From positions 1 through 64,000 of the IMG/VR virus record IMGVR_UViG_3300008108_000124: a DNA stretch of 64,000 nucleotides. One strand, written 5' to 3'. The stretch is from a virus. The position numbers and the translations under genes were made by a program. The notes beneath the pieces were generated by a model. That model worked only from the letters and a program-made list of their open reading frames with translations, did not search any database and had not been told where the DNA came from. Shown here piece by piece: positions 38,744 through 61,517 of this stretch (position 1 is its first letter; every line of letters begins with the position of its first letter).

Positions 38744-38750
38744 TTACCCA

Positions 38751-38778
38751 AATACCCGGAAAAATTTCCGGGTATTTT
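38751..38778 (+). terminator. Intrinsic terminator after the 38396 gene
   Basis: AATACCCGGAAA and TTTCCGGGTATT form a nearly perfect hairpin followed by a T run. It closes the transcript from the left and separates it from the riboswitch cassette that begins 50 bases downstream. Confidence 0.9.
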
Positions 38779-38825: not shown

Positions 38826-38854
38826 TTGACTATATAAGATGAAAGGGATATAAT
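38826..38854 (+). promoter_or_regulatory. Consensus sigma-70 promoter of the riboswitch cassette
   Basis: TTGACT (38826-38831) and TATAAT (38849-38854) are separated by 17 bases. Transcription would start near 38861, immediately before the riboswitch P1 strand. It is among the best host-type promoters in the window, so the cassette is probably expressed early by host RNA polymerase. Confidence 0.85.
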
Positions 38855-38862
38855 ATATCTCT

Positions 38863-38964
38863 AACGTTCATCTGGAGTATCCAGACGGAAGTAAGCCGAC
38901 TCGGAACGGATCGTTCATTCTCTATTTGCGAATAGAGAACGCAAAAGCCGACTGAAGGAACGCT
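38863..38964 (+). promoter_or_regulatory. Glutamine riboswitch (Downstream-peptide/glnA aptamer class)
   Basis: CGTTC (38865-38869) pairs with GAACG (38958-38962) as P1. CTGG-AGTAT-CCAG (38872-38884) forms P2. The aptamer core ACGGAAGTAAG (38885-38895) and ACTGAAGGAACGC (38951-38963) follow the glnA/Downstream-peptide consensus. A variable stem with 9 pairs and a TGCG loop lies at 38918-38939. These RNAs bind L-glutamine and are known from cyanobacteria and cyanophage or marine metagenomes, typically upstream of short peptide genes, as here. The gene below has a strong AAGGAGG site. Confidence 0.85.
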
Positions 38965-38981
38965 CTTTAACCTAAACCATT

Positions 38982-38988
38982 AAGGAGG
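38982..38988 (+). promoter_or_regulatory. Strong Shine-Dalgarno AAGGAGG
   Basis: AAGGAGG at 38982-38988 lies 6 bases before ATG 38995. It is an almost full-length anti-16S match, unlike the weak sites elsewhere, and is the natural target of riboswitch control. Confidence 0.85.
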
Positions 38989-38994
38989 AACCTA

Positions 38995-39108
38995 ATGTCA
39001 CAAGTAGCAATGAAAAAACTTAATTTTCTGCAACTAATTAAAGAACAAAAACAAAAAGAAGAACGTCGTCATCAGGCACAATTAGCGCAACTAATCGGAG
39101 CAAAGTAA
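38995..39108 (+). CDS. Riboswitch-controlled basic 37-aa peptide
   Basis: The 37-residue product has an N-terminal MSQVAMKKLNFLQLI, a Lys/Glu/Gln-rich middle and EERRHQAQLAQLIGAK at the end. It is probably one amphipathic helix with net positive charge. Support for expression comes from the consensus promoter, riboswitch and strong Shine-Dalgarno upstream and the TAATG coupling to the next gene. In cyanobacteria glutamine riboswitches control small basic glutamine-synthetase inactivating factors (IF17), so a similar host-nitrogen role is a reasonable guess. No clear sequence similarity to IF7/IF17 is evident to me. Confidence 0.75.
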   Translation: MSQVAMKKLNFLQLIKEQKQKEERRHQAQLAQLIGAK

Positions 39109-39194
39109 TGGCACAGTTCATAGTCACAACGAGTGCCGGAATCGCTCTATTGACTATTCTTTTATCAATGTACATTCAGTGGCTTTATAAGTAA
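39108..39194 (+). CDS. 28-aa single-pass membrane peptide
   Basis: The ATG overlaps the TAA of the 37-aa gene (TAATG), so translation is coupled. The product is a single hydrophobic helix (SAGIALLTILLSMYIQWLYK) with a short polar start (MAQFIVTT). It resembles in build, not in sequence, the small single-helix subunits of photosystems and cytochrome complexes. A terminator follows directly. Together with the upstream peptide it forms a two-gene micro-operon. Confidence 0.7.
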   Translation: MAQFIVTTSAGIALLTILLSMYIQWLYK

Positions 39195-39199
39195 ATGAA

Positions 39200-39231
39200 C
39201 TTAGGGGGGATTGACTTCCCCCCTTTTTTTG
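39200..39231 (+). terminator. Intrinsic terminator of the micro-peptide operon
   Basis: GGGGGG (39204-39209) pairs with CCCCCC (39218-39223) around an 8-base loop and is followed by seven T. It is a textbook terminator that ends the riboswitch cassette. Confidence 0.9.
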
Positions 39232-39260: not shown

Positions 39261-39410
39261 ATGGACAAAGAAAAAATAAAATTAATTATCAGAAATATGG
39301 AATTGCTTTTAGACAGCTTAAAGGTAGAAGTTTTGTCCGATGATCCACCCCATAAGATTTCTGAAATAAAACCAGAAGATATGGATTATGATGAGGTTTT
39401 CTATGAATAA
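39261..39410 (+). CDS. Small acidic protein (49 aa)
   Basis: The ORF begins with a helix (MDKEKIKLIIRNMELLLDSL) and ends EDMDYDEVFYE. Its stop overlaps the ATG of the following oxygenase-like gene, which supports a real gene. I recall similar short acidic proteins in T4-like cyanophages, with no known function. No strong upstream promoter; TATAAA occurs at 39232-39237 just after the terminator. Confidence 0.55.
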   Translation: MDKEKIKLIIRNMELLLDSLKVEVLSDDPPHKISEIKPEDMDYDEVFYE

Positions 39411-39990
39411 TACATATCATAGATATCTCAATTTACCCTTTCAAATTGAACCTCCAAAAATGTTTGAAGAACATGGAGAAATTGTCAAACATCATATTTT
39501 AAATGAATTAAAGTATCCTGATATTGATAAGTTTTTTGGTCAATTTGGGTTAATTTGTGCTCGTAAAGAGTGTTTTTATACTCCTCCATATGGAAAAGTT
39601 CCAATTCATACCGATCATGGAACTTATACTAATCACGTTAAACTTAACGTAACTTGGGGTCCAGAAGAGGGTGTAATTCAATGGTGGAAATCAGACATTG
39701 TTGAAGAGAAAGTCATCGATGGTGGCATTAAAAATACTGATGCATATCATCACAATTTATGGGCAAAGGAAGAGGACTGTACACTTTTATATGAAGCAAA
39801 TACAAATGTTCCTAGTTTAGTGAATGTTGGTATTCTTCACGGTACTAATAATCCAACTCCATATCCAAGGTGGACATTATGCTTCGTTCCATGGAATCCA
39901 AGGAAATCATCAAGAGATAGAAATACATCTGGTATGGTTCATTGGAACGAAGGAATGCAAATTTTTAAAGATTATATTGTCAATGAATAA
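39403..39990 (+). CDS. 2OG-Fe(II) oxygenase-like protein, tandem copy A (195 aa)
   Basis: ATG 39403 is chosen: it follows gagg and overlaps the upstream stop, whereas ATG 39388 lies inside the previous gene. CFYTPPYGKVPIHTDHGTY gives the H-x-D iron site, and LVNVGILHGTNNPTPYPRWT the distal His and Arg. The fold type resembles aspartyl/asparaginyl hydroxylase and cyanophage 2OG oxygenases. A paralogue follows with an 8-base overlap. The substrate is unknown. Confidence 0.6.
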   Translation: MNNTYHRYLNLPFQIEPPKMFEEHGEIVKHHILNELKYPDIDKFFGQFGLICARKECFYTPPYGKVPIHTDHGTYTNHVKLNVTWGPEEGVIQWWKSDIVEEKVIDGGIKNTDAYHHNLWAKEEDCTLLYEANTNVPSLVNVGILHGTNNPTPYPRWTLCFVPWNPRKSSRDRNTSGMVHWNEGMQIFKDYIVNE

Positions 39991-40618
39991 ATTTCATAGG
40001 TATTTAAATATTCCAAATTATATTCCAAGAATAGATTTTTCACAGTGGAAAACTGATGGATTTCAATGGCATGAATTTCATAAAAATTTATCTTTGGATG
40101 ACCTTGGCAATCTTAAAATTGCCAGATTTCTAGATCGTTTAGGCATGAGTAGTGATTGGATAGAAGTATTCTACACTCCTCCAAATAGTTCTGGAATTAT
40201 TCACTCTGATAATGGTTTGGGTGATGACTGGGCAAAGATTATTTACCAATTCGGTGCCAAAGGAAGCACCATGAGATGGTGGACTTCTGAAAATTCTTTT
40301 CAATTGGTTCCAGGAATGGAGAACTATATTATGGAAAATATGGAAGAGGTAAAGGGAGTTCCCGGAAAAGATGTTTTGGGAGACGATATAGATTGTCATT
40401 ATAGTCAAAAGGTACTAATGTCTTTTGAAAAAGATGCTACAATGGTTTATGAAGCAGAAATTGGACAAGCAAGTTTAGCAAACACAGGTCCTCTTCATAG
40501 TTCCTATAATCCTACTAATGAGAAAAGATTTGTCGTTACGATAGGATTATTTGATAAATGTGGAAATAGGCTTCTTTGGGATGATGTTTTAACCAGAATG
40601 GATCAATACTTAAAATGA
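39983..40618 (+). CDS. 2OG-Fe(II) oxygenase-like protein, tandem copy B (211 aa)
   Basis: The start is ATG 39983 (MNKFHRYLNIP), parallel to copy A (MNNTYHRYLNLP); the reading frame extends further upstream only by chance. EVFYTPPNSSGIIHSDNG carries an H-x-D iron site, and ASLANTGPLHSSYNPTNEKRF the distal His and Arg. It shares the order of all motifs with copy A but is clearly diverged, so the pair arose by an old tandem duplication. Confidence 0.6.
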   Translation: MNKFHRYLNIPNYIPRIDFSQWKTDGFQWHEFHKNLSLDDLGNLKIARFLDRLGMSSDWIEVFYTPPNSSGIIHSDNGLGDDWAKIIYQFGAKGSTMRWWTSENSFQLVPGMENYIMENMEEVKGVPGKDVLGDDIDCHYSQKVLMSFEKDATMVYEAEIGQASLANTGPLHSSYNPTNEKRFVVTIGLFDKCGNRLLWDDVLTRMDQYLK

Positions 40619-40785
40619 GAACTACTAGAGCAAGACAACTTGTTAAATTGCTGAATAGATTGATTAAACAAGAACATCTATATTCAGATGAAAAATTAAA
40701 AGAGATGAAAGAACAATTGCGAGTTGTTAAGCAAGAACTCGCAGAACTAGAAGCAAAAACATCAAAAGGATTTGGAACAAAATGA
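40615..40785 (+). CDS. Small basic helical protein upstream of thyX (56 aa)
   Basis: The ATG overlaps the preceding TGA (ATGA) and its own TGA overlaps the thyX ATG. The product (MRTTRARQLVKLLNRLIKQE, then helical Lys/Glu repeats ending SKGFGTK) looks like a short coiled coil. I recall a similar protein next to thyX in other T4-like cyanophages. No known function. Confidence 0.65.
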   Translation: MRTTRARQLVKLLNRLIKQEHLYSDEKLKEMKEQLRVVKQELAELEAKTSKGFGTK

Positions 40786-41378
40786 CAGTAAAACTTATTA
40801 GCGTAACTCCGGATGCAGAAAAAACAATGGCATATGTTGCCAGAGTTTCTAATCCAAACAATCAAGAAAATGACAATTATTCTGGTCTTCTGAAGTATTG
40901 TATTAAACATAATCACTGGTCTGTGTTTGAGCAGGCTCACATGACTCTTGAAGTTGAGACTAACCGTGGTATAGCAGCTCAAATTTTGAGGCATAGATCT
41001 TTTACCTTTCAAGAGTTTTCGCAGCGTTATGCTGATGCCAACCTATTGGTAGAACATATTCCCATTCCTGAACTTCGCCGCCAAGATACGAAAAATCGTC
41101 AGAATTCGATTGATGACATTTCTGATTATGTAAAACTCAAATTGCAGGGTGAAATCTCCGAGCATTTCATTGCCGCCAATGCCCTCTACAAGCGCCTTCT
41201 AGAGGCAGGGGTATGGTACAATGATAATCCAGAATGGAAAAGAGATTGGTCACAAGGATCTGCTTCTCCTGGGGAGGTTGGTGAATGGAAAGACAAACTT
41301 ATCAGTAGAAATCCAGGATGGAACGACGTATTAGGTCGTGCTGCCAAAATGCCCGGTTCAAACATTAAAAAAATCTAA
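40782..41378 (+). CDS. thyX: FAD-dependent thymidylate synthase, chimeric/shortened C-terminus (198 aa)
   Basis: The N-terminal 145 residues are a normal ThyX: VSNPNNQENDNYSGLLKYC, HNHWSVFEQAHMTLEVET and the ThyX motif RHRSFTFQEFSQRY that binds dUMP and FAD. After LYKRLLEAGV the family would continue with a V-L-P-x-x-x-x-T-R block and an R-S-x-x-H-x-I/x-x-x-L-R block carrying the Arg, Asn and His that complete the active site. Here there are instead about 50 unrelated residues (WYNDNPEWKRDWSQG, GEVGEWKDKLISRNPGW, GSNIKKI). The 3' catalytic half is therefore missing or replaced. Either the enzyme is inactive or partners another product, or the gene was rebuilt by deletion. Confidence 0.75.
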   Translation: MTVKLISVTPDAEKTMAYVARVSNPNNQENDNYSGLLKYCIKHNHWSVFEQAHMTLEVETNRGIAAQILRHRSFTFQEFSQRYADANLLVEHIPIPELRRQDTKNRQNSIDDISDYVKLKLQGEISEHFIAANALYKRLLEAGVWYNDNPEWKRDWSQGSASPGEVGEWKDKLISRNPGWNDVLGRAAKMPGSNIKKI

Positions 41379-61024: not shown

Positions 61025-61189
61025 ATGGAAGTTTTTACCGTGGAACAATTTCAACAACAATTTGACGAACTCCTTGAAAGAGTCGAAAATGGTGAGCACA
61101 TAGGAATTGTCGGTGAAGACGGAAGAGCGGCAGTAATAGATTTGGCTTTATGGGAGTATAGCTTAATGGTCAGAGCGGCCTGCTTATAA
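61025..61189 (+). CDS. Phd/YefM-like small protein overlapping a tRNA (54 aa)
   Basis: MEVFTVEQFQQQFDELLERV and ENGEHIGIVGEDGRAAVIDL follow the Phd/YefM antitoxin pattern (S-x-x-E-x-x-x-x-x-x-x-L-x-x-V-x-x-G-E-x-x-x-I-x-x-x-G-x-x-x-A-V-L). The final 13 codons and the stop lie inside the tRNA-Ile gene (61152-61223). No toxin gene is adjacent. It might block a host toxin or act as a repressor; the family call rests on the N-terminal 40 residues. Confidence 0.5.
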   Translation: MEVFTVEQFQQQFDELLERVENGEHIGIVGEDGRAAVIDLALWEYSLMVRAACL

Positions 61190-61223
61190 CGGGTTAGTCT
61201 GGGTTCAACTCCCAGTACTCCTA
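61152..61223 (+). tRNA. tRNA-Ile(UAU)
   Basis: Acceptor GGGAGTA pairs with TACTCCT (61216-61222; discriminator A). D-stem GCTT/GAGC, anticodon stem GCCTG/CGGGT, loop CTTATAA with anticodon TAT (61185-61187), and T-stem CTGGG/CCCAG with TTCAACT. It would read AUA, a frequent codon in this A+T-rich phage but rare in many hosts. Most bacteria read AUA with a lysidine-modified CAU tRNA instead. No CCA is encoded. Confidence 0.8.
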
Positions 61224-61226
61224 TAT

Positions 61227-61316
61227 GGAAGTGTGGCAGAGAGGTCTAATGCAGTGGATTGCTAATCCGCCGATGTTCTTTAAGGGCATCCGTTGGTTCG
61301 AATCCAACCACTTCCG
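61227..61316 (+). tRNA. tRNA-Ser(GCU)
   Basis: Acceptor GGAAGTG/CACTTCC with discriminator G, a long variable arm (CGATGTTCTTTAAGGGCATC region) typical of serine tRNAs, anticodon stem GTGGA/TCCGC and loop TTGCTAA with anticodon GCT. T-loop TTCGAAT. It reads AGC/AGU. It follows the Ile tRNA by 3 bases. Confidence 0.9.
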
Positions 61317-61318
61317 TT

Positions 61319-61391
61319 GCTCCTTTAGCAATCTGGTGAATGCAGCGAACTCATAATTCGCCTGAGGCGTGTTCGATCCACGCAAGGAGCA
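61319..61391 (+). tRNA. tRNA-Met(CAU) or Ile2
   Basis: Acceptor GCTCCTT/AAGGAGC, discriminator A, anticodon stem GCGAA/TTCGC, loop CTCATAA with anticodon CAT, T-stem GCGTG/CACGC. With an AUA-reading tRNA-Ile next to it, elongator Met is the simpler reading, but a lysidine-modified Ile tRNA cannot be excluded. Confidence 0.85.
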
Positions 61392-61392
61392 C

Positions 61393-61421
61393 TTGACCAA
61401 TACAACTCTTTGAGTTATAAT
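61393..61421 (+). promoter_or_regulatory. Sigma-70 promoter before tRNA-Leu
   Basis: TTGACC (61393-61398) and TATAAT (61416-61421), 17-base spacer, lie between the Met and Leu tRNAs. The transcript would begin around 61428, so the Leu tRNA (and perhaps the 61538 gene) has its own promoter. Confidence 0.8.
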
Positions 61422-61433
61422 GGTCCTATACAA

Positions 61434-61517
61434 GGGAGATTGGTGGAATCGGTAGACACACCAGACTTAAAATCTGTTGGGCGTATGCCCGTGGGAGTTC
61501 AAGTCTCCCATCTCCTA
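61434..61517 (+). tRNA. tRNA-Leu(UAA)
   Basis: Acceptor GGGAGAT/ATCTCCT, discriminator A, D-arm TGGAATCGGTAGACA, anticodon stem CCAGA/TCTGT and loop CTTAAAA with anticodon TAA. The variable arm is long (GGGCGTATGCCC) and the T-stem is GGGAG/CTCCC. It reads UUA, one of the most used Leu codons in this genome. Confidence 0.9.

Follow-up and report, generated by a model that had tools for sequence, protein, structure and literature searches.

The leader at positions 38865 to 38963 (plus strand) of the window, the 64,000-nucleotide stretch analysed here, which belongs to a virus record of 70,459 bases, is probably a phage form of the glutamine-I riboswitch that holds two aptamers in one fold and serves as an ON switch for both small peptides encoded downstream. 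Comparison with related leaders showed that the predicted structure is one nested RNA, in which helix P3 of an outer aptamer leads to another aptamer, circularly permuted and with a capped hairpin as its P1 (P1'). If this reading is true, it would represent a natural riboswitch in which a normal aptamer is joined to a circularly permuted one by a common helix, and a case of a protein gene located within an aptamer.

The cassette opens with a σ70-type promoter (TTGACT-17-TATAAT, 38826 to 38854, plus strand) that matches the consensus at 11 of 12 positions; judged from the position of this promoter, the transcript would start a few bases 5' of the aptamer. The Shine-Dalgarno sequence GGAGG (38984 to 38988) precedes the ATG at 38995 of a 37-aa ORF (38995 to 39108), which has one base in common with the following ORF (39108 to 39194) for a 28-aa hydrophobic, probably membrane, peptide. 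The terminator of the preceding gene (38750 to 38777) and that of the cassette itself (39203 to 39231) lie on either side, all of these features being on the plus strand. Terminator-like sites, the one of the cassette at 39203 to 39224 among them, numbered eight, compared with a mean of 0.5 in shuffled sequences, several of the eight being the same hairpin. Promoter, strong Shine-Dalgarno sequence, two coupled open ORFs and flanking terminators had all been proposed in a preliminary description of this DNA, and each was found in its place.

That description had also proposed a glutamine riboswitch of the Downstream-peptide class over the small-peptide operon. When the whole window was examined by cmscan, RF01739 (glutamine-I, glnA) was detected at 38910 to 38966 with 37.8 bits, above its cut-off of 35, a covariance-model hit that supports both the glutamine aptamer and its placement over the operon. 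RF01704 (Downstream-peptide/Glutamine-II) reached 17.5 bits, under its cut-off of 33; by this score the Downstream-peptide class was rejected for the window, and the class is glutamine-I. A glutamine-II switch over glutamine-synthetase inhibitors, as originally suggested, is accordingly extremely improbable, even though the CGCA and GGAACGG ends of the inner unit are type-II-like (PMC6698751, in excerpt) and the peptides under its control in the relatives are DUF4278-like, as are those of type II in picocyanobacteria (PMC6316151, in excerpt). The window peptides match neither DUF4278 nor IF7, and the phage RNA has three-way junctions, unlike the type-II pseudoknot; the likeness consists of the inner-unit motifs and the small peptides downstream.

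The number of aptamers reported by Rfam depended on the stretch submitted. A longer stretch gave two RF01739 units, 38910 to 38966 (37.8 bits) and 38863 to 38908 (25.3 bits, below the cut-off), and a short stretch gave a single composite aptamer, 38863 to 38966, with 56 bases within P3 (37.8 bits). This ambiguity provided a clue to the nested fold; it also means that the aptamer first described stood but its single unit did not, as two aptamer-like units are present. Our own model, R2, scored 92.1 bits on the nested aptamer of the window, a sequence that belongs to the R2 training set. With respect to RF01739 membership, the glutamine-contact bases of the outer unit are kept and the pair between nt 23 and nt 60 is formed in 112 of 112 records; the local P3 stem-loop of the family was not found. 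Because the strands of P3 are far apart and another junction lies between them, we call the leader a variant rather than an ordinary RF01739 member. The labels nt 23 and nt 60 follow what we take to be the numbering of the type-I crystal structure.

Along the plus strand, the double aptamer (recognised by RF01739 and R2) begins with the 5' strand of outer P1 (CGTTC, 38865 to 38869; partner 38958 to 38962), the outer P2 hairpin (38871 to 38885) and the outer junction CGGAAGTA (38886 to 38893), in which 38888 is nt 23, the partner of 38963 (nt 60). The 5' strand of the shared P3 (AGCCGACT, 38894 to 38901) faces its 3' strand (38946 to 38953), AGCCGACT against AGCCGACT, giving six standard pairs and two A.C mismatches over eight positions. 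Enclosed by P3 are the inner P1' capped hairpin GAACG-GAT-CGTTC (38904 to 38916), whose loop base 38909 is in a position suited to pairing with 38942, the inner P2' hairpin (38918 to 38939), where 72 of 112 records have an ORF instead, and the inner junction CGCAAA (38940 to 38945). GAAG and the 3' strand of outer P1, GAACG, follow at 38954 to 38962, and then the anti-Shine-Dalgarno CTCTTTAA (38963 to 38970), the first base of which is nt 60, and TTAAGGAG (38980 to 38987), its partner in the predicted fold, which contains most of the Shine-Dalgarno sequence.

Counts were made on 112 records, comprising 102 IMG/VR records among the matches listed, nine phage records (L001-L009) and the window; 109 of the 112 are distinct in their structural parts. 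The IMG/VR scan employed a pattern for the inner hairpin only and yielded at least 120 stretches; of the 120 listed, 102 were complete composites, three near a contig end had only the 5' half, and 15 were not composite. CGGAACG[AG]A and the second CGTTCA are prescribed by the pattern, and for that reason nothing was drawn from the conservation of these motifs. When records were anchored on the outer 3' strand instead, the standard inner hairpin, the outer core and an AGTCG-type P3 were present in 98 of 111 usable records, nine more having been excluded as too near a contig end. The other 13 comprised eight with a flipped P1' (compensatory C-G; L400, L405, L406, L427, L429, L444, L454 and L464) and five that were degenerate, differently spelled or without the 5' core. 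In L405, L406, L427 and L444 the P1' loop no longer yields GGAG, and the usual ATG still follows. L417 and L470 carry an apparently reduced form, in which CGTTCATCCTATG opens an ORF directly and the 3' half (GGGACGCAAACGACTAAAGGAACGG) is retained; no upstream core was found in these two.

The nested topology draws on covariation that is beyond the reach of a plain tandem. Pair 23-60 was read as base x of the 5' unit CG[x]AAGTA against the base after the outer GGAACG. In the 112 records it was G-C in 22 and C-G in 90, with no other combination; when both bases were left free, the 102 IMG/VR records again gave only C-G (85) and G-C (17), and a separate set of 116 from a free-P1' scan gave C-G in 113, C-A in one (L517, which is not among the 112) and two unreadable cases. 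Two records whose nested ORFs are about 90% alike, L025 and L083, differ by a G-C to C-G double change at this very pair. The inner pair of P3 was T-A in 38, G-C in 11 and A-T in eight of 57 long-class records, without a mismatch, and all five pairs of the short-class P3 were formed in 49 of 49 records with G-T allowed, six records of intermediate length being left out of the P3 scoring. Over eight positions, the long-class P3 (52 records) had six pairs in 43, seven in eight and five in one. Finally, the closing pair of P1', scanned with both bases free, was G-C in 105 and C-G in 11 of 116 records, and in 10 of the 11 flipped records the upstream (outer) CGTTCA and the downstream AAGGAACG were found.

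These data bear directly on the alternative that the leader is simply two ordinary glutamine-I aptamers side by side, the 'tandem glnA' class. The two units do match RF01739 separately, if only one of them above the cut-off, and the P1 bases alone are compatible with both topologies. True side-by-side glutamine-I tandems of two complete aptamers also occur in phage contigs (L297, L313, L349, L394 and L396), and 157 glutamine doublets, together with four triplets, were counted in a review that, in the part available, calls them pseudo-cooperative (PMC9481103). However, the tandem partner of nt 23 fits in 90 of 112 records and fails in 22, the 11 flipped records of 116 would have a broken tandem P1, unit 1 of the short-P3 class is too small to accommodate a local P3, and each half is without features that the other half has. 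In 31 ORF-free sequences, the nested structure had 94.5% of cells paired, with 87 two-sided changes compared with 25.1 in shuffles; the tandem structure had more (96.9%), because P3 is absent from it. P3 is the weakest of the helices, with 79.6% of its cells paired; of its eight pairs, one was not formed in 25 of 31 sequences and a second was not formed in 16 of 22. At the pairs that discriminate the two, nested 26-106 was formed in 100% of these sequences, whereas tandem 26-48 and 83-106 were formed in 71% each. RNAalifold, unaided, found outer P1 and the capped P1' and did not propose P3. The simple tandem was rejected on the failures at nt 23, P1 and the discriminating pairs, and we regard it as very improbable.

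Glutamine is reported to contact the C1:G59 pair, G22 and C58, with the long-range pair adjoining (PMC6698751, in excerpt). The outer unit has all of these contact bases and the loop-E sequence, and the inner unit has the same contact bases in permuted order. From this retention in both units we infer two working pockets, with the reservation for the inner one that it carries AAA/CG instead of the loop-E sequence AAGUA/GAAG and so may not bind glutamine. A single working glutamine-I aptamer, with P3 carrying a structural or decayed insert and the inner unit non-binding, would agree with this difference at loop E and with the Rfam parse of the composite as one aptamer plus insert. Yet the inner CGCA is kept in 102 of 102 IMG/VR stretches with both outer halves (the other inner motifs being forced by the pattern), P1' covaries, and the inner counterpart of 23-60 is able to pair in 110 of 112 records, a count in which the pattern allows G or A and the extraction requires C. 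We therefore consider one pocket possible, though unlikely.

In the two-aptamer model that we favour, the outer aptamer, made of P1, P2 and the loop-E junction, would have a long-range P3 that ends in the permuted aptamer with its capped P1'. In the window, glutamine would stabilise outer P1 and pair 23-60; this pair would take the first base of the 8-bp anti-Shine-Dalgarno hairpin and thereby help to free the ribosome site, and the 37-aa and 28-aa peptides would be switched on. In the minimum-energy fold of the window, CTCTTTAA is indeed paired with TTAAGGAG, and as base 38963 is also nt 60, ligand binding and the anti-Shine-Dalgarno hairpin compete for it; the loss of one such pair is a small effect. 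This hairpin begins at nt 60 in 17 of 20 folded G-C-class records, and the anti-Shine-Dalgarno starts at nt 60-62 in 29 records. Of 108 records folded (a start was not found in four of the 112), 81 had a paired Shine-Dalgarno sequence and 27 an open one. The leader fold of the window is mildly more stable than shuffled sequences (z -1.16; 25 of 200 shuffles equal it), and its minimum-energy structure shows neither outer P1 nor P3. Type 1 and type 2 glutamine switches of cyanobacteria are reported to work in the ON direction (PMC6316151, in excerpt), and for this reason the same direction was assigned to the window. Altogether, glutamine as the ligand, translational control and the ON direction are what we infer from these features.

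In many relatives, the RNA encloses a gene. Of the 112 records, 72 have an inner P2' that exceeds 60 bases, and in all 72 an ORF of 49-69 codons starts at an ATG located 3-10 bases 3' of CGTTCA. In 66 of the 72, the stop lies at a common place, the J strand between P3 and P1, and in six it lies elsewhere. The dN/dS of the nested ORFs (NG86) had a median of 0.20 and none was above 1 (69 usable of 76 pairs), and two cysteines are invariant in 36 aligned products. Of the products tested, one is a member of phrog_504 (E 2e-26), another is weakly so (E 0.015) and a third belongs to phrog_13397; both phrogs are annotated as of unknown function. The predicted structure of the product was a helical hairpin (mean pLDDT 74.9) with no match in the PDB (best E 5.2), and therefore no function was assigned. 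By tblastn, the nested ORF was detected in 313 of 50,697 phage records, where it is mostly labelled 'hypothetical protein'; the names of all 313 contain Synechococcus, Prochlorococcus or cyanophage. Each of the 16 regions inspected, namely 15 of 24 listed down the tblastn ranking plus S-SM2, had the ORF within the RNA, together with a GAG loop. Because these 313 are deposited cyanophage records, laboratory phage-host pairs are at hand, with which it could be tested whether phages read host nitrogen status through glutamine.

The P1' loop is linked to the presence of this ORF. A loop starting with GAG, which yields GGAG before the ATG, occurred in 41 of 72 records with the ORF and in none of 40 without it (Fisher 5e-11, uncorrected for kinship; as the records are related by descent, such P values overstate their independence). 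Within the short-P3 class, the figures were 41 of 42 and 0 of 7. The spacing from GGAG to ATG was 9-11 bases in 40 of 41 records and 16 in one. The link has exceptions, in that 31 of 72 ORF-bearing records are without GAG; the loops of the 11 flipped records were GAG (five), GTTC (three), GAAC (two) and GAA (one). The contiguous P2' helix contained at least one base of the AUG in 63 of 72 records and all three bases in 23. These features led us to consider, tentatively, a toggle in which glutamine shuts the nested ORF and opens the downstream DUF4278 operon, so that one signal would have opposite outputs from one RNA. The likely Shine-Dalgarno of the nested ORF, GGAG from the P1' loop and closing pair, would use bases of the inner glutamine pocket, its AUG would lie at or in P2', and ribosomes translating it would at the same time open up the aptamer that they traverse.

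An ORF is likewise present in the outer P2 of 18 of 112 records, 12 of which have ORFs in both P2s. These ORFs of the outer P2 (in L020, L024, L036, L042, L047, L079 and 12 more, that of L079 being phrog_6471) encode 59-68 aa, often with a hydrophobic start and cysteines, and stop near the CG[G/C]AAGTA core. The window has no ORF in either inner P2' or outer P2.

Downstream of the RNA, the relatives usually control a DUF4278 (IF17-like) gene. The first downstream ORF had a YRG-like motif in 93 of 112 records and was without it in 13, including the window; in six records no such ORF was found. The motif is like that of DUF4278, the N-terminal part of IF17 (PMC6316151, in excerpt). L035 has the full set of a DUF4278 gene (Pfam E 1.8e-13, above the cut-off), a 32-aa peptide and a 27-aa hydrophobic peptide. 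The 37-aa peptide of the window consists of MSQVA followed by a 32-aa part that is 97% identical to those of L025, L326 and L035; the 32-aa portion matches phrog_545 (E 5e-4), and MSQV is the start of the DUF4278-like genes of L004 and L022. From these alignments, the window seems to have lost its DUF4278 gene in frame, the first codons of which were fused to the complete 32-aa gene. The 28-aa membrane peptide, earlier thought to be without a counterpart, has one in L097 (68% identical, E 1e-8), with weaker relatives in L083, L025 and L326 (E 0.004-0.007) and weak matches in L305 and L035 (E 0.18 and 0.88) just after the 37-aa peptide match. Thus, open relatives exist for both peptides.

Searches of the window peptides against Pfam and NCBIfam gave no DUF4278 or IF7 match, and profile comparison of the 37-aa family with IF7/IF17 returned a probability of 0.9%; kinship of the 37-aa peptide with IF7 was rejected on these grounds. 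With DUF4278 apparently lost and no IF7/IF17 similarity, the initial proposal that the peptides inhibit glutamine synthetase is unsupported for the window, and judging by gene content it would be a better fit to the relatives. At host loci, a DUF4278-like gene often follows the switch, and several of these genes have an IF7-like end, although NCBIfam IF7A scored below its cut-off in both of those tested. The cyanobacterial gifB (IF17) and gifA (IF7) genes resemble the phage relatives in having a glutamine switch before DUF4278; they differ in that the second phage peptide is not IF7-like and the window is without DUF4278. In L006, L013 and L018 the two downstream modules form a fusion in which the helical peptide precedes the YRG motif, the reverse of the usual order, a hint that the two modules act together. 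The apparent fusion of DUF4278 and the missing nested ORF would also suit a remnant, that is, a phage that lost both genes and passively retained the riboswitch. We judge this improbable, since the pocket bases, pair 23-60, the anti-Shine-Dalgarno and the Shine-Dalgarno are all intact in the window and 39 of the other 111 records are likewise without a nested ORF and keep the fold.

All 25 named phage regions examined with the element are Kyanoviridae. Hosts were represented by 386 cyanobacterial-phylum genomes, a set defined by the phylum to which a Gastranaerophilales genome belongs and in which picocyanobacteria may be thinly sampled. RF01739 was above its cut-off in 61 of them, and the nested form was not found by either pattern or R2. 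The nested pattern matched 11 of the 386, none of them composite, and as the pattern read backward also matches a number of these genomes, 11 is at chance level. R2 matched nine of 386 at 34.0-39.7 bits over spans of 50-61 bases, as for ordinary singles, under strict filters that may miss weak matches. The 30 best host loci were canonical singles with a local P3, and G23-C60 in 30 of 30. The composite was likewise not found among the genome-contig stretches listed, at least 118 (one from Gastranaerophilales, none from a typical cyanobacterium), and a plasmid search gave no match. In the literature, an annotated glnA riboswitch of phage S-CREM1 covers the composite (PMC9964418, in excerpt), and a glutamine switch is mentioned for phage Melnitz (excerpt of PMC9004378). 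Among the titles and abstract openings listed, a set lying outside Ames and Breaker 2011 and Klahn 2018, none names a nested, permuted or ORF-bearing glutamine aptamer.

The phage RNA was compared with known systems. It resembles glutamine-I (RF01739) in its P1 sequence, the CGGAAGUA/GAAG junction, pair 23-60, a score above the Rfam cut-off and the DUF4278-like gene downstream in relatives. In contrast to that family, its P3 opens into a second, circularly permuted aptamer and not a local hairpin, pair 23-60 is predominantly C-G where the 30 best host loci are all G-C, and it often holds an ORF inside. Group I introns carry homing-endonuclease ORFs in their loops, and thus have a protein gene in a peripheral loop of a structured RNA in common with the phage RNA, which differs in being an aptamer, with an ORF of about 53 codons that mostly ends inside the RNA core. 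Tandem riboswitches, including the glutamine doublets, also have two same-ligand aptamers per leader; compared by description (PMC9481103, in excerpt), those stand in a row, whereas the phage strands are interleaved and P3 is common to both. Natural circularly permuted RNAs, which include hammerhead and twister, 5S rRNA, group II introns and tmRNA, likewise have a permuted strand order and a kept arrangement; unlike the phage inner aptamer, those named in the excerpt of PMC10085705 include no riboswitch aptamer.

The surroundings of the cassette were also inspected. A thyX-like gene (Pfam Thy1) lies 3' of it at 40782 to 41378, and the element lies near a gene named thymidylate synthase in S-PM2, P-TIM68, S-SRM01, S-SCSM1 and P-SSM2. 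A Pfam search with the ORF at 39388 to 39990 gave no significant match; by eye, this ORF and its neighbour at 39824 to 40618 are paralogue-like (YHRYLNLPF / FHRYLNIPN, YTPPYG / YTPPNS). Four tRNA genes are clustered at 61152 to 61517.
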